Counted from the first letter of the stretch, positions 1-8,599 are shown. The stretch is 64,000 nt of DNA from Winogradskyella pelagia (GCF_017581965.1 NZ_JAGEVF010000006.1:62001-126000), one strand, 5' to 3'. Translations and numbers: made by a program. The notes: a model not told the origin generated them from the sequence alone.

Positions 1-1
1 T

Positions 2-727
2 GAAGCCAGCAACAATCATACAAAAGCTCTTGAAAAGAAAGCAGAAGTAGAAACTAGATTAGACGAGCAATATGCCTTATTAAAACAGGCACGTCAGGCT
101 CTAGATGAGGTGGCAGATAAACAATCTACTGAATACTCTGAAGCTCTGGAGCGAGTAACTCAATTAGAGCAGAAAGTTGAAGAGTTAGAAGGATTGAAGA
201 ATGCATATACCACTTTAGCTGCTTCCAAGGATAGTTTTGTGCATAAACATAATCTCACGATTAAGGTATTGACCTCGTTGAGAAGTAATTTGCAAACACA
301 TAGGGCAAAACTTAAAAGTGATACCGACGAAAGGTTAAAGTATTACGATGGTTATGTTGTTGCACTTAAGGCCAGAACAGACCAAGAGTTTGCAGCTATT
401 TTAGAGCATTTAGGCGTAAAAACAGACGAACATATAGGAGAGACCCTTGCAGCAATGCATACGGCTAGCGCCAAAGCACGTCAAGAAATGATGGATAACA
501 TTCCCGTTCATGAAAAAGTAATGCAAGGTGTGTACAGTAGTTATGCCGAAGCGCTACAAGAAATCCGTAATAAAGATGGTGAAATTCAAAAGAATTTTGC
601 AGATCGCTACGGTATTGATATGAAAGAAATATTTGATGCTTACTATAATGCAGATGATACTGCAGTAGAAAGTAGTGGCGAGGAACCTAAAAAGTCAGAA
701 ACCAAGGAGGACGATCTACTTTCGTAA
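2..727 (+). CDS. Coiled-coil protein of unknown function, 5' truncated by window edge
   Basis: The reading frame is open from base 2 with no start codon that must be used, so the true start lies upstream of the window; the GTG at 110 is only the first in-window start-like codon. The visible 241 residues are rich in Glu, Lys, Ala and Leu and read as long coiled coil, followed by an acidic tail with several Glu-Asp runs before the stop at 727. No signal peptide, membrane segment or catalytic motif is visible in the part present. It leads a run of eight co-directional genes ending at 8599 (70 bases to the next gene). Function unknown; a structural or scaffold role is an inference from the coiled coil alone. 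Confidence 0.85.
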   Translation, partial: EASNNHTKALEKKAEVETRLDEQYALLKQARQALDEVADKQSTEYSEALERVTQLEQKVEELEGLKNAYTTLAASKDSFVHKHNLTIKVLTSLRSNLQTHRAKLKSDTDERLKYYDGYVVALKARTDQEFAAILEHLGVKTDEHIGETLAAMHTASAKARQEMMDNIPVHEKVMQGVYSSYAEALQEIRNKDGEIQKNFADRYGIDMKEIFDAYYNADDTAVESSGEEPKKSETKEDDLLS

Positions 728-797
728 TTTTTAAGGATTATTTCAATAAATTAATATTGGCCGTTGGCAATGCTAACAGCTTAAGCGCAAAGTATCA

Positions 798-1844
798 ATG
801 ATTGTAACGCCACTAGATTCAGCAGTATTAGACTCTAAAGAACAGTATGTGTTTTATCACAAAATGATAGATTTCACACTGAAAGAGTTAATTGTAGCTG
901 TTCAGGCCAATAAAATTTGCAATGATCAAGAAATCCAGCTGTTTAAACAATATTGTGACCTTTTATTGTACTCCATTGAGGCCATGAGAGTTAAATACAT
1001 GTATGACGATGAGGAAAATATGAAGGTGGATTTAACAGATTCTGGTTTTCCTAATTATTTGGAGTTTAGATATCTGTTTAATGATTTAGGGCTACGAGAG
1101 GAATTTTTGGGAAAGTTGACACCAGTGGAAGATTTAAAAACTGAATTTTTAGATACCTTAATGCGTAAAAAGCAGCTCGTTTCCAAACGAAAGTTATTCC
1201 AGGCGGCTTCAATCGTATATTATTCATCAGCAAAAAAGGAGTATATCTTTAATCGGTTTGTTCAAGGAAAAATCATTAAATCTTTAGAGCATTCTGATGG
1301 AGATTATATGGTAAGCTGGAGTTTCTATGATGTTACGCAAAATAGGCCTTTCATATGCTTTATGTACTTCAACTATGATGGTAGAAACGTTATGGATTAC
1401 AAAGATGAAATTTATAAAGTATTAAAAAGTGTTGCTGATAGGGAGATGAATTTAGATACAATGGCCTATGGTATAGACAAAAGATTGCCAAAAGTATTAC
1501 CAAAACAGATTAAAAGGATTGATTTAGGACCAATACACAATGTTTTTGCTAAGGATGAGAATGAAGTAACCCATGCAATTTTAGATGGAATTTCAAAAAA
1601 AACCATACCGCTAGAAGCCTATGCCATTTCTTTTAAAATAAGCGAATTAAAATCTAAGAGCGAATTTAAAGAAGGCGGATTTTTTAATAAACAGATTTTT
1701 CAGAAATGGGATAGTGCTTTCAATAAATCTTACGTTTTAGCACCTCATAGAATCATACAATTACTTTATAATAAAACGCCCGAAGTCATCAATAAGTTGG
1801 CCTTACCACCAATAGAGGTCTCTAAACTAGAAATTAAAATCTAA
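798..1844 (+). CDS. Uncharacterised soluble protein, 348 aa
   Basis: An ATG-started frame of 348 codons in the same run as the coiled-coil gene upstream and the lipoprotein downstream. There is no signal peptide and no convincing membrane helix, so it is probably cytoplasmic. The first ~110 residues look helical, with many charged and aromatic residues; the remainder is mixed alpha/beta with a Tyr/Phe-rich stretch around residues 180-200. I do not recognise the family and see no catalytic motif. Context (AAA+ ATPase, membrane partners) suggests it may be a cytoplasmic component or client of the same system, which is inference only. Confidence 0.85.
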   Translation: MIVTPLDSAVLDSKEQYVFYHKMIDFTLKELIVAVQANKICNDQEIQLFKQYCDLLLYSIEAMRVKYMYDDEENMKVDLTDSGFPNYLEFRYLFNDLGLREEFLGKLTPVEDLKTEFLDTLMRKKQLVSKRKLFQAASIVYYSSAKKEYIFNRFVQGKIIKSLEHSDGDYMVSWSFYDVTQNRPFICFMYFNYDGRNVMDYKDEIYKVLKSVADREMNLDTMAYGIDKRLPKVLPKQIKRIDLGPIHNVFAKDENEVTHAILDGISKKTIPLEAYAISFKISELKSKSEFKEGGFFNKQIFQKWDSAFNKSYVLAPHRIIQLLYNKTPEVINKLALPPIEVSKLEIKI

Positions 1845-1900
1845 TTACATATATGTTAAAGCTGTAAGTAAAATATATAAACAATAAAGCACCATTTTTC

Positions 1901-2455
1901 GTGAATTTTAAACATAAATATTTAGTTATTCTCTTTGTTTCAGCAATTTTTTTATCATGCTCAGATGATGACGTGGACAATACAACAAATTTAGAAACAG
2001 CAATTGATTTGGTAACTGGCATAAATGCAAAGCAGGATACAAATTCTATATTCCAACTAGGAAACCCAAATGTTAGAATGCCTATAGGTTTTACTTCATT
2101 ATCTATTATTGCCTTTCCAAATCCTGTAAACTCTGCACTAAATATTAGTCTCTCTCAAACTAATGAGGTTATAACTAATGTTTGGTTAGTGAGGGCAAAT
2201 GCAGAGAAGATTTTTCAGGACACAGATTTTGATGCCATTTACACTGAGAATACGTATACCATTGACGAGGTTTCCCAAGCTTCAATCCAGGAATTTAATG
2301 GTTTTTCAAACAATGAAATTATTTTGAATTTAGAGGGGTTAGACACAGGATATTATCGGGTTTTCATAAAAACAGATGATAGCCTTTATTGGGATAATAT
2401 TTACGTAGATAATGATGGCGTAGACATAACTGAATTTTTTGACTTTTGGGAATAG
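1901..2455 (+). CDS. Lipoprotein with a type A sorting-domain-like fold
   Basis: GTG start at 1901; the first 20 residues form a lipoprotein signal peptide (basic start, hydrophobic core, Leu-Ser-Cys with Cys20). The mature protein begins Cys-Ser-Asp-Asp-Asp; an acidic stretch just after the Cys is linked to surface display of lipoproteins in Bacteroidetes. From about residue 68 there is an FPNPVNSALNI motif and later GLDTGYYRVFI and a DNIYV strand, which together resemble the conserved strands of type IX secretion C-terminal sorting domains (PNP, then G-x-Y-x-V). Unlike true sorting domains it is not at the very C-terminus: about 14 acidic/aromatic residues follow. It is the only clear outer-envelope member of the AAA+ operon. 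Role unknown. Confidence 0.8.
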   Translation: MNFKHKYLVILFVSAIFLSCSDDDVDNTTNLETAIDLVTGINAKQDTNSIFQLGNPNVRMPIGFTSLSIIAFPNPVNSALNISLSQTNEVITNVWLVRANAEKIFQDTDFDAIYTENTYTIDEVSQASIQEFNGFSNNEIILNLEGLDTGYYRVFIKTDDSLYWDNIYVDNDGVDITEFFDFWE

Positions 2456-2500
2456 GGAATCCTAGACCAAAAACTTAGTACCTAAACTGATAGTTTAAAC

Positions 2501-4468
2501 ATGGAACATAACTCTACATTCCCAATAAAACAAAAAGAACTGGATATGCTTCGAGATGAAGCGGCATCTTATCTTAAGTCTATTCAATGGGAACAATCCC
2601 AACGTGCAAAATCTAGAAATAATGATAATAAAGACGATTCCATTTTATTGTTCTTATCTAGAGCCAATAATGGCAGCAATGTCACAATCACTTCTGTTTC
2701 AAAAACAATTTTAGCGCTTAAAAAAAGACTTTTGCCAGAGTCGGTAGCAATTCCTATACATTTAAACCAGGCGTTGTTTGTGTTGCAAGAAGGCATTGTT
2801 CTAGGACACTGGATTAAGGATAATTATTATGATGCGTCTGGACTATCAACACTTGCTGAAAACAAAGCTGCCTTGGGCAACAAAGAACGACGTGAGTACG
2901 AAAGTAAAATGCAAACAGCTACAGCATATATGCTTTTTGCAACAGCGTATAAAATTGTACATGACTTAATGCCAATTGCTTCAGATGATTTAACGGTAAT
3001 GAAACACAAATTTGCTGGAATCCCAGAAGTTGCGCTAATGACACCTTTAAAAGGAATTTCTTGTCAGCTTTTTTATTACGATAAATACCTTAGTCATCCA
3101 GATATCATCCATTCAGACAAGGATGTTATTGATTTTACAATGGTTTATTTTCAGGCTTTAATTGATGAAATTCAATTACGCAAGAGTTCTTTGGAATTTA
3201 CAGAAACCATATTAGACAGAACTTATAAATTAGAAAACTCGGATTTTGCAGTTTCTGGCTGGGAGAACGTTTTTCAAGGCTCCGCTAAGAGTGTAGAATT
3301 TAATAAAGTTCAATTCGAAGAGATTGTAGGAAATAAGGATGCCAAACACTTTGCTAGGCGACTAACTGAGCGCATGTTAAGTTACGATTTTGAAGTACAA
3401 AAAAACCCTTTTCAAGAATTAGGAGGTTTTATGCCGGTTTTTATGGGGTATGGTATTCCAGGAACAGGTAAAAGTATGCTTATTGCAGCAATTGCAACGC
3501 GTTTAAAGGAATACACAGAACAATTGGAGATTCCGTTTTTATTTCATCCAATGCCAGATACCTTAATCTCTACATTTCAAGGGGGTTCTGCGGAAAAAAT
3601 GGTAGAATGGATGAAACCTTTACAAGACCCAACACGACTCATTTTTGCACCCATTGATGATGCAGAAAATAACTTACAAGAACGAACTACACAAGGTGTA
3701 TCTGCAGGTGTAAAAGAAGTTATAGGTGTATTTTTAAGATATACGGAAGGTGCCTATGCCATTAATTATGGTAATAGTTCGATAGGGCTTTTTACAAACC
3801 TTCCCGAGATGTTAGACAAAGCAGTTATTTCGAGGGTTCAAGGACGTTTTAAAATTGATGGAGCCCGAACAGAAAATGATTTTTTAGATCAGGATTATTT
3901 ATGGTGGAGCAGATTTGAAGAAACCTTACCACAATTTGTGAATATGAATGGTCCTAACGATTATAATTATTTAGATGACCAAGGTTTGGCAAAGTCATTA
4001 GGCGATATTTTGAAAGCTGTTGAAAAGCCTAGTGAAGAACGGGTAAATGAGGTTTTTGAAAAAGTAGAAAACAAGCACAACGAAGGAGACCATTTATTTT
4101 ATGCAGCCCTCTATAAAGAAGTGCAAAAGATATTTCCATTCTTTTCATCTCGAGATGTTAGAAATATTCAGTCGGCAATTTCTTTACGGTTAACGGATTT
4201 TGATTTGGAAAACGACTGGTTTGAAAATCCCGAAGTTTACTTTAAAAAGGACTATGAGACAAAATTCAATATGTTAAAAGAGTTGATGAAATCTAATATG
4301 AAAGGATTAAACTTCTCTGATATTAGGCGTCAAGAAGTTATTCGCTATTTAGATAATGTAGCTACAATAGCCGATACCGATTTTAAACGTAGGGTAGATA
4401 AGCGCATCACTCAAATGAATATTGAGCTTGAGGCACGAGAGCAGTTTGATAAGAATTCTCACATTTAA
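2501..4468 (+). CDS. AAA+ family ATPase, 655 aa
   Basis: Central AAA+ module with Walker A GIPGTGKS at residues 318-325 (Lys324) and a Walker B-like IFAPIDDAE at 381-389. A sensor-1-like Asn in GLFTNLPEML is followed by an Arg-containing AVISRVQGRF segment typical of the arginine-finger region. About 300 residues of mostly helical sequence precede the ATPase and about 200 helical residues follow it, an arrangement unlike FtsH, ClpX or MoxR. No membrane helix or zinc site is visible. Its stop overlaps the next start (TAATG), so it is almost certainly translationally coupled to the Nudix gene. AAA+ proteins act as ring-shaped remodelling motors; the substrate here is unknown, and the neighbours suggest an envelope- or membrane-linked process. 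Confidence 0.88.
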   Translation: MEHNSTFPIKQKELDMLRDEAASYLKSIQWEQSQRAKSRNNDNKDDSILLFLSRANNGSNVTITSVSKTILALKKRLLPESVAIPIHLNQALFVLQEGIVLGHWIKDNYYDASGLSTLAENKAALGNKERREYESKMQTATAYMLFATAYKIVHDLMPIASDDLTVMKHKFAGIPEVALMTPLKGISCQLFYYDKYLSHPDIIHSDKDVIDFTMVYFQALIDEIQLRKSSLEFTETILDRTYKLENSDFAVSGWENVFQGSAKSVEFNKVQFEEIVGNKDAKHFARRLTERMLSYDFEVQKNPFQELGGFMPVFMGYGIPGTGKSMLIAAIATRLKEYTEQLEIPFLFHPMPDTLISTFQGGSAEKMVEWMKPLQDPTRLIFAPIDDAENNLQERTTQGVSAGVKEVIGVFLRYTEGAYAINYGNSSIGLFTNLPEMLDKAVISRVQGRFKIDGARTENDFLDQDYLWWSRFEETLPQFVNMNGPNDYNYLDDQGLAKSLGDILKAVEKPSEERVNEVFEKVENKHNEGDHLFYAALYKEVQKIFPFFSSRDVRNIQSAISLRLTDFDLENDWFENPEVYFKKDYETKFNMLKELMKSNMKGLNFSDIRRQEVIRYLDNVATIADTDFKRRVDKRITQMNIELEAREQFDKNSHI

Positions 4469-5052
4469 TGAAGGTAAAGAATATAGAGCATATTACTTTA
4501 TCTAATGCTTGGGCAAATTTAAAGCGCATAGATTTTGATTACAAGTTCAAAAATGGGCAATGGAAACGTTTGTCTAGAGAGACTTATAATAGAGGTAACG
4601 GTGCGGCAATCTTACTTTTTAATAGACAAAAGCAAACAGTGATTTTAACCAAGCAATTTCGAATGCCCATATATGAAAATTCTCAAGAAGAATCCTTTTC
4701 AATAGAGGTGTGTGCAGGAGCTATTGACAATAACGATAGTGCTTTAGAAACGATTTTACGAGAAGTTAGGGAAGAAACAGGCTACATTATAAATACAGCT
4801 AACCTGGTATTATCAACCTATACCTCACCAGGAGCACTTACCGAAAAAATGTATTTATTTGTCGCATCCTATGACCATACAAATAAAGTAAACGAAGGTG
4901 GCGGCTTGTTAGAAGAAAACGAAGAATTAGAAGTGCTAGAACTTTCATTTGAGCGCGCCATTGAGATGGTGGGCTCTGGAGAGATAAGAGATGCCAAGAC
5001 TATTTTATTATTACAATATGCTCAGATTAAAAGGTTAATGCACTTATCTTAA
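4468..5052 (+). CDS. nudK: NudK-type Nudix hydrolase (GDP-mannose / ADP-ribose pyrophosphatase family)
   Basis: The 194-residue protein follows E. coli NudK along its length: the NRGNGAAILLFN strand, QFRMP loop, CAGAIDNND turn, TSPGALTE loop, EGGG segment and SGEIRDAKTILLL near the C-terminus. The Nudix box spans residues 84-106 as G-x5-D-x7-REVREETGY; the family usually has Glu where Asp90 stands, while the metal-binding REVREE core is intact. NudK hydrolyses GDP-mannose to mannose-1-phosphate and GMP; related YffH/AdpP enzymes use ADP-ribose, so substrate is inferred. The start overlaps the AAA+ stop by one base. NudK is normally a housekeeping hydrolase, so its place inside this operon is unusual. 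Confidence 0.88.
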   Translation: MKVKNIEHITLSNAWANLKRIDFDYKFKNGQWKRLSRETYNRGNGAAILLFNRQKQTVILTKQFRMPIYENSQEESFSIEVCAGAIDNNDSALETILREVREETGYIINTANLVLSTYTSPGALTEKMYLFVASYDHTNKVNEGGGLLEENEELEVLELSFERAIEMVGSGEIRDAKTILLLQYAQIKRLMHLS

Positions 5053-5072
5053 AAAAGACCAGTAAAAAATCT

Positions 5073-6308
5073 ATGGAAAAACTAAAGCAAGCCAATCTGT
5101 ATCGAAGCGAACTCATTCCGGTAAGTGGAAAGCTTGTTGAGCGTTATAATAAGTGTCTTAGAACTTTAGGCTTTTCCCAAACTAAATTACCATCCTTTTC
5201 TATTGATGGTGTTGGTTGGAGTCCTGAAATAGCTGAAGAAAGGGGAGACGTACATTATTTAAATCATGGCGATGCAAATCCGCATGGTATAATAATTTCG
5301 CCACTACAAAAGGGCAAACCGGTTTATTTACCATTTCATTCTTTTGATAGAGAAATGATGCAGCATGTGTTTAGAACTCATGGACGAAAAATTAATGATA
5401 TTACGAGAGATTCTGCCATATGTATTGATTTTGACCAAGACATTGATGTGTTCTATGAACCCTTGGATATATTAAAATACGATGATGTTAGTATTACCTT
5501 TCGGCTTATAGATAGCTTGGAAGAAAAGCAAAAAAGACAGCATGAGCTCGTAGAGAAATTTAAACATGGGAATAACTTTATTGATGAAGACATCCATAAA
5601 GAATTGCTAGACTCGGCTAAAACCTATGGCGATCTGCGCAATCGGGACTTATCCTTGCATCCTTTGCACTTTTCAACAGGTTCATTTTTTACAAGAGCTT
5701 TTGATGGTGTATACCTTTTAAGGGATTTTATTAAACCTATTTTGGTTTTTGAAAGTATAGAAGTATATAAGGAAGCCATAAAAGATACCGTACATGATGT
5801 TCTCATTTATCATATTGGTCAACCAGAATTAATTGACAAATTAAAGAACCATTTGATTATAGAATGTGATTTAGAACAGATGGTGAAAACACCAAATTAC
5901 GACAGAATTAAAAAACACGAGCTATATTCTGTCTTAGAACAAACTGAGCACCCAATCAAAGACATCTTAAATGATAAAGTGTTGCTCAAAAGCTATCTCA
6001 ATAAAATTGATATAAAAAAGCGGAAACAAGTAATGGGTGTTGAGTTATACCTTGAACGGCTTGCAAGGAGTAATGCCTATAAGATAGAGGATATGGTAAA
6101 TCAGTCGCTTTATTTTGCTTTGCACCAACCACATTCATCCTTAATGCCTAATCAGCGAGATTTAATCCACAAACTCTTAATTAACATAGCCCCTAAGGAT
6201 GTTTTATTTCTCTATTGGTACGATAAAGAACAGTTTTATAAAAGCTATGCCACATGGGATGACTCCTTTAAGGATTGGGTGATAGAGTGTATTAGTAACA
6301 ATATTTAA
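5073..6308 (+). CDS. Uncharacterised protein of the AAA+ operon, 411 aa
   Basis: ATG start 20 bases after the Nudix gene. There is no signal peptide and no membrane segment. The N-terminal half is mixed alpha/beta and contains a His-rich patch (HYLNHGDANPHG, near residues 63-74) and an FHSFDREMMQHVFRTHGRK segment; the C-terminal ~200 residues look helical. The patch could bind a metal, but no known hydrolase motif is complete. I do not recognise a characterised family; it may be one of the Bacteroidetes-specific domains of unknown function. Tight spacing ties it to the ATPase/Nudix pair. Confidence 0.85.
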   Translation: MEKLKQANLYRSELIPVSGKLVERYNKCLRTLGFSQTKLPSFSIDGVGWSPEIAEERGDVHYLNHGDANPHGIIISPLQKGKPVYLPFHSFDREMMQHVFRTHGRKINDITRDSAICIDFDQDIDVFYEPLDILKYDDVSITFRLIDSLEEKQKRQHELVEKFKHGNNFIDEDIHKELLDSAKTYGDLRNRDLSLHPLHFSTGSFFTRAFDGVYLLRDFIKPILVFESIEVYKEAIKDTVHDVLIYHIGQPELIDKLKNHLIIECDLEQMVKTPNYDRIKKHELYSVLEQTEHPIKDILNDKVLLKSYLNKIDIKKRKQVMGVELYLERLARSNAYKIEDMVNQSLYFALHQPHSSLMPNQRDLIHKLLINIAPKDVLFLYWYDKEQFYKSYATWDDSFKDWVIECISNNI

Positions 6309-6348
6309 CTTAATTAGACTAACTTTATAAGAAACTAAATCAACAATC

Positions 6349-6891
6349 ATGGGAATAGAATTAGTCATTTTCATTACCGCCATTTTGTTTGGTATATTTT
6401 TGTATTGGCGAGAGTCTAACGGAAATGGTGCATATCGTTTTTTAAATAAGATAGTTAATAGCAAGGAGCTCCAAATGGATGCAGACAATCCAAAAGGATT
6501 TGTTTACAAGCAGGCTTTTATACCAAGATTGGTCTTTGTAGTAACCTTGGTGTTAGTGGCAGCTTTAATTTTAGAATTTCTAACGCCAATTTCGGTATTC
6601 GCTAGTTATAATGGAATATCTGCCTTTGCATCTTTCGCGGTAGGAACCTTATTAGGGACTTACTTAGCAAGTTTTGTTATTAAAACCTCTCAAGTTGTTG
6701 AAGATAAAAGCGGAAGTATTGGAGATTTAGTTGAAGAAGCTGTAGATAGAGGTAAAGATTTAATAGAGGATTTGAAAACATCAGACGCTAAGGTTGTCGA
6801 AAAAGCTAAAGAAGAGATTGATAATGAGCCTAAAGCAGAAGCAGAACAGAAAAGTGCACGAGACCGTCTAAAAGATAAAGGCTTGATGTAA
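6349..6891 (+). CDS. Membrane protein with charged C-terminal tail, 180 aa
   Basis: Begins MGIELVIFITAILFGIFLYW, an N-terminal hydrophobic helix at residues 3-20. Two further hydrophobic stretches lie at about 60-78 and 83-108, so three membrane helices are likely. Residues 115-180 are a soluble, highly charged Lys/Glu/Asp-rich tail with helical character, likely cytoplasmic. No known domain is recognised. It lies 40 bases after the 411-residue protein and 19 before the next membrane gene, consistent with one transcript. It may be the membrane anchor or docking partner of the operon (inference). Confidence 0.82.
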   Translation: MGIELVIFITAILFGIFLYWRESNGNGAYRFLNKIVNSKELQMDADNPKGFVYKQAFIPRLVFVVTLVLVAALILEFLTPISVFASYNGISAFASFAVGTLLGTYLASFVIKTSQVVEDKSGSIGDLVEEAVDRGKDLIEDLKTSDAKVVEKAKEEIDNEPKAEAEQKSARDRLKDKGLM

Positions 6892-6910
6892 TGATTTCAA
6901 CAAAAGTATT

Positions 6911-8599
6911 ATGATTAAAAGGTATTGGAACAAAGGAAAAAGACAAAAACGGATAACGCTTATTGTAGCTGTCTTTCTGTTATTGGCTTTATTCTTTTTT
7001 AGAGATGATTATCAACCGGCTTTACTGTTTTTCAGAAAGTTCATTTTCATTATAATAATCAGTCTACTAGTTCTAGTTTTTGGCTTAAGACGTTTTAGAA
7101 GAACGGCAAGCACAGGAGGCAGGTTAGGTATTTTGGGAGTTTTAATTGGTTTTTTTGGGTTACTTTACCTATTAGGCTGGCATCTTCAGCTTTACGATTA
7201 TATGAAGACCTACAACGTATTCAATGATTTAAATAAAATTGAAATCAACGAATTACCATTAACACAGAATGAACGTATTCAACCTTTAAGAAATATTTTT
7301 TCAATGGCTAATGAAAGTGTAGGTGAAACTAAAGACGTGTCTTTACCGCATTTGGTTAGAGTAGACAAGGAGAATAAATGGACCATGGCTATTCAACCTA
7401 GTGAGAAATACATTATGCAGCGCATTAGTGATAATACTGAAGAGGTGTTTTCCGTGAGCAGTACTACGCCATTTCCGAGATTTTCCAACGAAAATCGTAT
7501 TCCAGTGGTATTTTCAATAGGCGAGTCTTTAAAGTTTAGTAGAAATACTTATAACGCTGTTGTACAAAGGTTCAACCCTTGGATGTTATTCAATTATGAA
7601 CCAAGTGACACCTTTTACATGAAAAATGATGACAATGAGTGGGTTCAGGTGGTAAGCCTCATTAAATGGAAAGGATTCTTTTTCCCTTATCCTACCTTTG
7701 GAGGTGTAATGGTAATAGAAAATGGAGAGCACGACTTCAACGATTACCTCGAACGCATATTAATTGGTAAGGGTACTTTTGTAAGTCCAGATGATATTAA
7801 AGACTATCCGTTTTTAAATAAACAGAACACCCTATCAGAAAAAGTCTCACAGCTGCAAGCAGAATCTCTTAAGTTCTTAGGAGGTTTTAGTGATCCATTA
7901 CCATGGAATATGGAGACAGCTGTTAAAATTCCTGTAATGCCAAAAGATCAAAATCAACAACCTTATGTTACAGATTTTAATTTTGCAGGATCTAATACCA
8001 ATGCTTATAGCGGACTTTATCATTGGTTTGGATTAGAGCCTGTAGGTAAGGAACGCACTAGTTTAAGTTATAGTGTGTTTGTCCCTGCAGACGGTAGTGA
8101 TGTTCTCTATTATTACGATCATGCCTCAAAAAAACAAGGTTATGCAGGTGTTTCCGCTATGCCCTTAAAAGTAAAAGAATCACGTAAAGAATACGATTGG
8201 GAGGCCAATTCACCTGTGGAATTTAGACCATATGTAAAGAATATAGCAGGTCGTAAGCGTATGTTCTTTCTTGGAACGGTGTCTACAATCAGTAGAACAG
8301 ATGCTCAACAATTTGATGGTTCGGCCACACCAGATTTGGTTCTTATAGACAGTGAATATCGCGATGTCATTTGGATAGATGTAAAACATCCTAGCCAATG
8401 GGATAAATCTGTTTATGATCAACTTAACGAGGCTTGGCGAGCCAGTGAGGGGATTGGATACTATTTTCAGGAGTCTCTAGAAGATAAAGATATTCCTAAG
8501 AAAGAAAATGATTCATTAAAAGAAATTCCAAAAGAAGTAGATGATAAATCAAAAATGATTGATGAACTTCAAAGAAAATTAGATTCGCTAAAAGCTTAG
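6911..8599 (+). CDS. Membrane protein with large soluble domain and C-terminal coiled coil, 562 aa
   Basis: Three hydrophobic helices lie near the N-terminus (about residues 17-33, 43-60, 72-92), bracketed by Arg/Lys-rich segments. About 420 residues of mixed, beta-rich sequence follow, ending in an acidic/Lys helix with a short heptad pattern (MIDELQRKLDSLK). The soluble part contains FFPYPTFGGVMVIENGEHDFNDYL-like segments that I cannot assign to a family. It is the last gene of the run; the next gene is convergent, starting its stop at 8649. Together with the three-helix protein before it, it suggests the operon works at the inner membrane. Confidence 0.82.
   Translation: MIKRYWNKGKRQKRITLIVAVFLLLALFFFRDDYQPALLFFRKFIFIIIISLLVLVFGLRRFRRTASTGGRLGILGVLIGFFGLLYLLGWHLQLYDYMKTYNVFNDLNKIEINELPLTQNERIQPLRNIFSMANESVGETKDVSLPHLVRVDKENKWTMAIQPSEKYIMQRISDNTEEVFSVSSTTPFPRFSNENRIPVVFSIGESLKFSRNTYNAVVQRFNPWMLFNYEPSDTFYMKNDDNEWVQVVSLIKWKGFFFPYPTFGGVMVIENGEHDFNDYLERILIGKGTFVSPDDIKDYPFLNKQNTLSEKVSQLQAESLKFLGGFSDPLPWNMETAVKIPVMPKDQNQQPYVTDFNFAGSNTNAYSGLYHWFGLEPVGKERTSLSYSVFVPADGSDVLYYYDHASKKQGYAGVSAMPLKVKESRKEYDWEANSPVEFRPYVKNIAGRKRMFFLGTVSTISRTDAQQFDGSATPDLVLIDSEYRDVIWIDVKHPSQWDKSVYDQLNEAWRASEGIGYYFQESLEDKDIPKKENDSLKEIPKEVDDKSKMIDELQRKLDSLKA

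Follow-up and report, generated by a model that had tools for sequence, protein, structure and literature searches.

Vps4/ESCRT-III, CdvC/CdvB and the bacterial PspA-AAA+ pairs, whose gene neighbourhoods have been described (PMC11237479), are the systems that most closely resemble the locus reported here: in all of them, a classical AAA+ gene lies by the gene of a helical coiled-coil protein and has membrane partners. The AAA+ protein of this locus (D) also scores weakly against CdvC (E 9e-4) and against Vps4 chains. Unlike its counterparts, the coiled-coil protein (A) has no detectable similarity to PspA, D carries no Pfam-detectable MIT domain, and no ESCRT counterpart of two further proteins, B and F, was found. 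TelA/Ter systems also have a helical protein near membrane proteins, but share no profile similarity with this locus, in which no Ter-family match was obtained. As for named protein families, E passes the profile of the YffH/AdpP (NudK-like) Nudix hydrolases, and F is a clear member of DUF6638, a family itself without a described function. No paper on DUF6638 or on this gene set was found in the freely accessible journal literature searched. Here, we describe A-B-D-F as a conserved system for which the libraries and papers searched give no function.

Layout and edges of the locus

The window, i.e., the whole stretch of DNA analysed, comprises 64,000 nucleotides of Winogradskyella pelagia. Eight ORFs (A-H) occupy its + strand from 2 to 8599:

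Gene A, 2-727 (or 1..727), + strand: 3' part of the gene, soluble coiled-coil protein, core
Gene B, 798-1844, + strand: 348 aa, soluble protein, core
Gene C, 1901-2455, + strand: GTG start and lipobox, predicted lipoprotein, outside the conserved system
Gene D, 2501-4468, + strand: 655 aa, AAA+ ATPase of the classical clade, core
Gene E, 4468-5052, + strand: Nudix hydrolase of the YffH/AdpP (NudK-like) family, accessory
Gene F, 5073-6308, + strand: 411 aa, soluble protein, DUF6638 (PF20343), core
Gene G, 6349-6891, + strand: 180 aa, flavobacterial membrane partner (by hydropathy)
Gene H, 6911-8599, + strand: 562 aa, flavobacterial membrane partner (by hydropathy)

The ORF calls bear out the description given in an earlier note, of eight genes facing the same way with gaps of at most 70 bases: from A to H, the intergenic distances are 70, 56, 45, -1, 20, 40 and 19 bases. 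The one-base overlap that it had reported between the AAA+ and Nudix genes is likewise real, base 4468 being common to the stop codon of D and the ATG of E. No terminator-like site was found by a scan of the + strand within the A-H run, which is weak evidence, and a promoter scan of the locus returned counts equal to those of shuffles.

The window cuts the locus on its left side, and the earlier note had suggested that further components may lie upstream of the cut, with a tellurite-resistance-like gene as a mere guess. This was not borne out. The full gene A encodes 444 aa (L002:11393-12727), its start being ~608 bases outside the window's left edge, and the gene 5' of it, which encodes a metallo-beta-lactamase fold (L002:10463-11233), is divergent; the cut hence conceals the start of A only and no further part of the operon. 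On the other side, the gene 3' of H is convergent and arginase/formimidoylglutamase-like. Farther upstream, a same-strand run (L002:4459-8028) was read by eye only, and its genes look like those of two NAD(P)H-dependent reductases, an acetyltransferase, a MarR-type regulator and two pirin-like proteins.

A four-gene core and its variable companions

Over 80 related loci, D and F are present in all, A and B in 79 each, G in 74, H in 73, E in 61 and C in 4. All 73 loci that show A, B, D, F, G and H together keep one order and strand (73/73), an arrangement that is thus far above chance. The other seven loci consist of five on short contigs and two from Tenacibaculum, with F lying ~9 kb off, near the edge. 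Of 249 Flavobacteriaceae genomes, 76 have D (a count of 79 hits from which three weak generic AAA hits were removed) and exactly the same 76 have A; F is present in 75 genomes, and H in 77, among them 75 of the 76 D-positive ones. The sole genome that has D but lacks both F and H comes from an assembly that is 73% complete, and the co-occurrence of D with F yields a Fisher p of ~1e-63, uncorrected for genome relatedness. Homologues of the AAA+ gene are therefore not found mostly without the other genes, a pattern that the earlier note had named as fatal to the idea of a single system. Moreover, A, B, F and H covary in their pairwise distances (r 0.71-0.85, without a vertical-marker control).

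The cassette is single copy, is present in 33 of the 36 congeners tested and is surrounded by ordinary flanking genes, while its AAA+ protein is ~70-90% identical across genera; within the phylum sample, D is restricted to Flavobacteriaceae (5/395 genomes). One genome (G436) carries A-B-D, F and H at three sites far apart and has nonetheless kept all of them. Another (G498, L182:9157-13583) has an ABC-F gene, a Nudix gene and H side by side but no longer A, B, D, F and G, which looks like the remnant of an operon after their loss.

Outside the phylum, a tblastn search of 72,556 plasmid records placed the relatives of B, D and F in one and the same set of ten large replicons; A was found in all ten and, as a weak hit, in one further record. 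Four of these ten replicons are from Vibrio, four from Sinorhizobium, one from Shinella and one from Rhizobium. Five loci were examined, in Vibrio, Sinorhizobium, Shinella and R. leguminosarum, and all have the order A-B-D-F. Identity to the plasmid-borne relatives is 27-30% for D and ~25% for F; B and A, at 23-24% and ~24%, respectively, have BLASTP E values of 9e-12 and 3e-7 in Vibrio and of 2e-15 and 8e-7 in Sinorhizobium. The core is thus A-B-D-F, common to Flavobacteriaceae and to Alpha- and Gammaproteobacteria.

Hydropathy predicts no hydrophobic segment in A, B, D and F, all four core proteins being soluble, about three such segments and a charged C-terminal tail in G, and three N-terminal segments followed by a large soluble domain in H. 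H was without a match among the plasmid records and was retained in two genomes that lack the core (G498 and G501), and is hence not strictly coupled to it. In Sinorhizobium and Shinella, a DUF2333 membrane protein, with hydrophobic segments of its own, is encoded directly after F, and the Vibrio and R. leguminosarum cassettes have no membrane gene. G and H are a flavobacterial add-on, and membrane partners differ between clades. Kinship of H with the rhizobial DUF2333 protein was also considered and rejected, a profile comparison having detected no similarity.

With regard to C and E, their incidence (4/80 and 61/80 loci) and the fact that D and F usually nearly abut when E is missing (they are at most 123 bases apart in 15 of the 19 loci without E) place both outside the core: C is a passenger, and E, though frequent, is a dispensable accessory. 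C has a region resembling a Por secretion tail below threshold (Pfam Por_Secre_tail, 23.6 bits vs a cut-off of 27). E scores 146.4 bits against TIGR00052, above the subfamily cut-off of 79.55 (79.6), and 173.6 bits against the NudK equivalog for GDP-mannose pyrophosphatase (NF011585), below the cut-off of 234; its Nudix box contains REVREETGY. The earlier note had joined all eight genes into one machine with an outer-envelope component. What stands is an AAA+ motor with membrane components; the lipoprotein C, which was to supply the outer-envelope part, and the Nudix hydrolase E do not belong to the conserved set.

In many species, unrelated genes lie between core genes, repeatedly genes for 23S rRNA-intervening-sequence (four-helix bundle) and GIY-YIG proteins. 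The former occupy the B-D and F-G intervals (e.g., L071:9395-9757 and L085:14080-14481); the same insertions were seen by eye at L089, L098, L103, L109, L124, L130, L145 and other loci, those confirmed by Pfam being the two at L071 only. GIY-YIG genes recur after F. In several Winogradskyella, a 442-aa protein without Pfam match is encoded between D and E (L072:11965-13293, as well as L077, L078, L079 and L081), and in Sinorhizobium meliloti Ak57, a DUF559 endonuclease-like gene and an ISRm16 transposase are found between D and F (L149:11491-13236).

The core proteins

D belongs to the classical AAA clade, with 35.8 bits against Pfam AAA (PF00004; cut-off 21.2). Its N-terminal region of ~265 residues is without known domain, and residues 1-300 gave no Pfam match, to MIT or to another domain, a divergent MIT domain being beyond the reach of this sequence test. 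The Walker A motif is GIPGTGKS (G318-IPGTGK324-S), with the lysine that the earlier note had placed at position 324 invariant in 31 of 31 aligned relatives. In the same alignment, the Walker B acids are D386-D387, the second being an invariant aspartate instead of the usual glutamate; Flavobacteriaceae have FAPIDD at this motif, and the relatives from Vibrio and Sinorhizobium have GTIDD. D does not carry an hhhhDE Walker B with its catalytic glutamate, a residue that is usual but not universal, and by score it still is an AAA domain. From the sequence, the substitution at D387 could mean weak or no ATP hydrolysis. The second region of homology is present: N433, D439, A441, R445 and R449 do not vary among 31 sequences that represent three bacterial classes, R445/R449 being candidate arginine fingers and N433 the candidate sensor asparagine. 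Profile searches of the PDB matched D to VCP, Rpt, Pch2, Vps4 and katanin, the best-scoring solved relatives being the unfoldases VCP and Rpt.

A is a soluble protein with a long coiled-coil, without Pfam match and assigned to no family. In flavobacteria it has a conserved N-terminal DDFDLLET and, after a variable linker, a C-terminal DD[LM]L[SG] that is present in 79 of 79 flavobacterial sequences; neither terminal motif is conserved in the Vibrio and Sinorhizobium homologues. Sequence kinship of A with PspA_IM30 (ESCRT-III/PspA) was considered and rejected by profile comparison (HHalign probability 0.6%, no Pfam match).

B carries invariant SGFP and GP motifs. Its structural model is of moderate quality (pLDDT 72; 71.6), and a fold search of the PDB returned no significant match. 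The best match, to tunnelling-fold enzymes, was discarded: its Z of 7.0 over 86 residues with an rmsd of 3.0 lies at the tool's background level and was obtained with a model of pLDDT 72 only. F is assigned to DUF6638 (PF20343) with 117.8 bits (cut-off 27) and shows, in a cross-phylum alignment, the invariant N-terminal signature RYN..L / T.L..F.ID..G.SPE. Its AlphaFold model is confident (mean pLDDT 90.4, pTM 0.86). Fold searches with F gave no significant match in the PDB (best Z 5.0 over 39 residues, a helix pair) and nothing among viral models; such an absence is no proof of a new fold. A, B, F and H, compared as profiles with the PDB, gave nothing meaningful.

Possible workings of the system

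That A, B, D and F form a unit rests on their co-occurrence, on their conserved order and on the retention of the parts after dispersal of the operon. Our preferred reading, which we put forward tentatively, is that A-B-D-F make up one AAA+ machine for remodelling that works on A close to the inner membrane, where G and H would tether it in flavobacteria. D would assemble into a hexameric ring of the classical AAA+ type that, driven by ATP, pulls on or dismantles assemblies of A. The acidic-dileucine motifs at the termini of A (DDFDLLET and DDxLS/G) would be a likely handle or docking site, and B and F may be cofactors that dock A or the substrate onto the ring. A DUF2333 protein may take over as tether in some rhizobia, and the Nudix hydrolase E would be an accessory to the machine. 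The likely role would be to maintain or remodel the cell envelope, or else a membrane-bound assembly, with a working principle like that of Vps4/ESCRT-III, A having no detectable sequence kinship with ESCRT-III/PspA. Several observations weigh against this reading: the aspartate at D387, the failure of Vibrio and Sinorhizobium to keep the terminal motifs of A, the absence of an MIT match in D and of a PspA relation in A, and the persistence of H in two genomes without the core. The membrane role may be wrong, given that the Vibrio and R. leguminosarum cassettes include no membrane gene.

For this last reason, an assembly or quality-control factor that does no membrane remodelling is almost as likely. 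D would then be an unfoldase or chaperone, A, B and F its adaptors, and the client a cytoplasmic or membrane enzyme complex; RavA-ViaA and CbbX are AAA+ precedents acting on enzyme complexes. The solubility of all four core proteins and the unfoldases VCP and Rpt as best profile relatives of D agree with such a factor, whereas a long coiled-coil protein like A is not a compact adaptor, and nearly every flavobacterial locus encodes two membrane proteins, one of which co-occurs almost perfectly with the core.

An anti-phage defence system in which the AAA+ protein is sensor or effector appears unlikely. It could draw on the patchy distribution across phyla and on a PADLOC search in which D weakly matched IetA (E 1.4e-5), but this match covers the AAA+ domain only and no other part convincingly matches a defence family. 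The locus proteins gave only generic AAA+ matches in the defence library and only generic AAA matches in PHROGs, and no relative of the Vibrio AAA+ protein was found in phage records. Defence genes usually turn over faster, and the single copy, the conserved AAA+ protein, its presence in 33/36 congeners and the ordinary neighbours all speak against this reading.

A stress system of the tellurite/Ter type (TelA), suggested by the superficial likeness of an operon with a long helical protein and membrane proteins, is very improbable: HHalign of A against Bacteroidota TelA returned a probability of 0.1% (with four TelA rows only), no locus protein matched Pfam TelA (PF05816), and TelA was searched for in this genome and not found. 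Equally hard to credit is a loose transcription unit of unrelated genes with no common function, which the coming and going of C and E and the many unrelated insertions might evoke, and which stands for C but is contradicted for the core by its near-perfect co-occurrence in 249 genomes (with phylogeny uncorrected), by the ten plasmid records in which the whole set recurs and by the parts kept in the dispersed genome.

The set may be an AAA+ machine with unfamiliar partners, and it is possible that it is of a categorically new kind. More specifically, and doubtful as it is at this stage, A-B-D-F might represent an undescribed class of bacterial ATP-driven machine, not related to ESCRT-III by descent, in which a classical AAA+ ring dismantles a coiled-coil assembly, with at least one new fold (DUF6638) and clade-specific membrane anchors. 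DUF6638, confidently modelled but matching no solved structure, is a good candidate for structure determination. Finally, a set that is near all-or-none in 249 flavobacterial genomes and that recurs in Proteobacteria very probably does something specific; as this set includes a motor, what it moves is a directly testable question in culturable flavobacteria or rhizobia.
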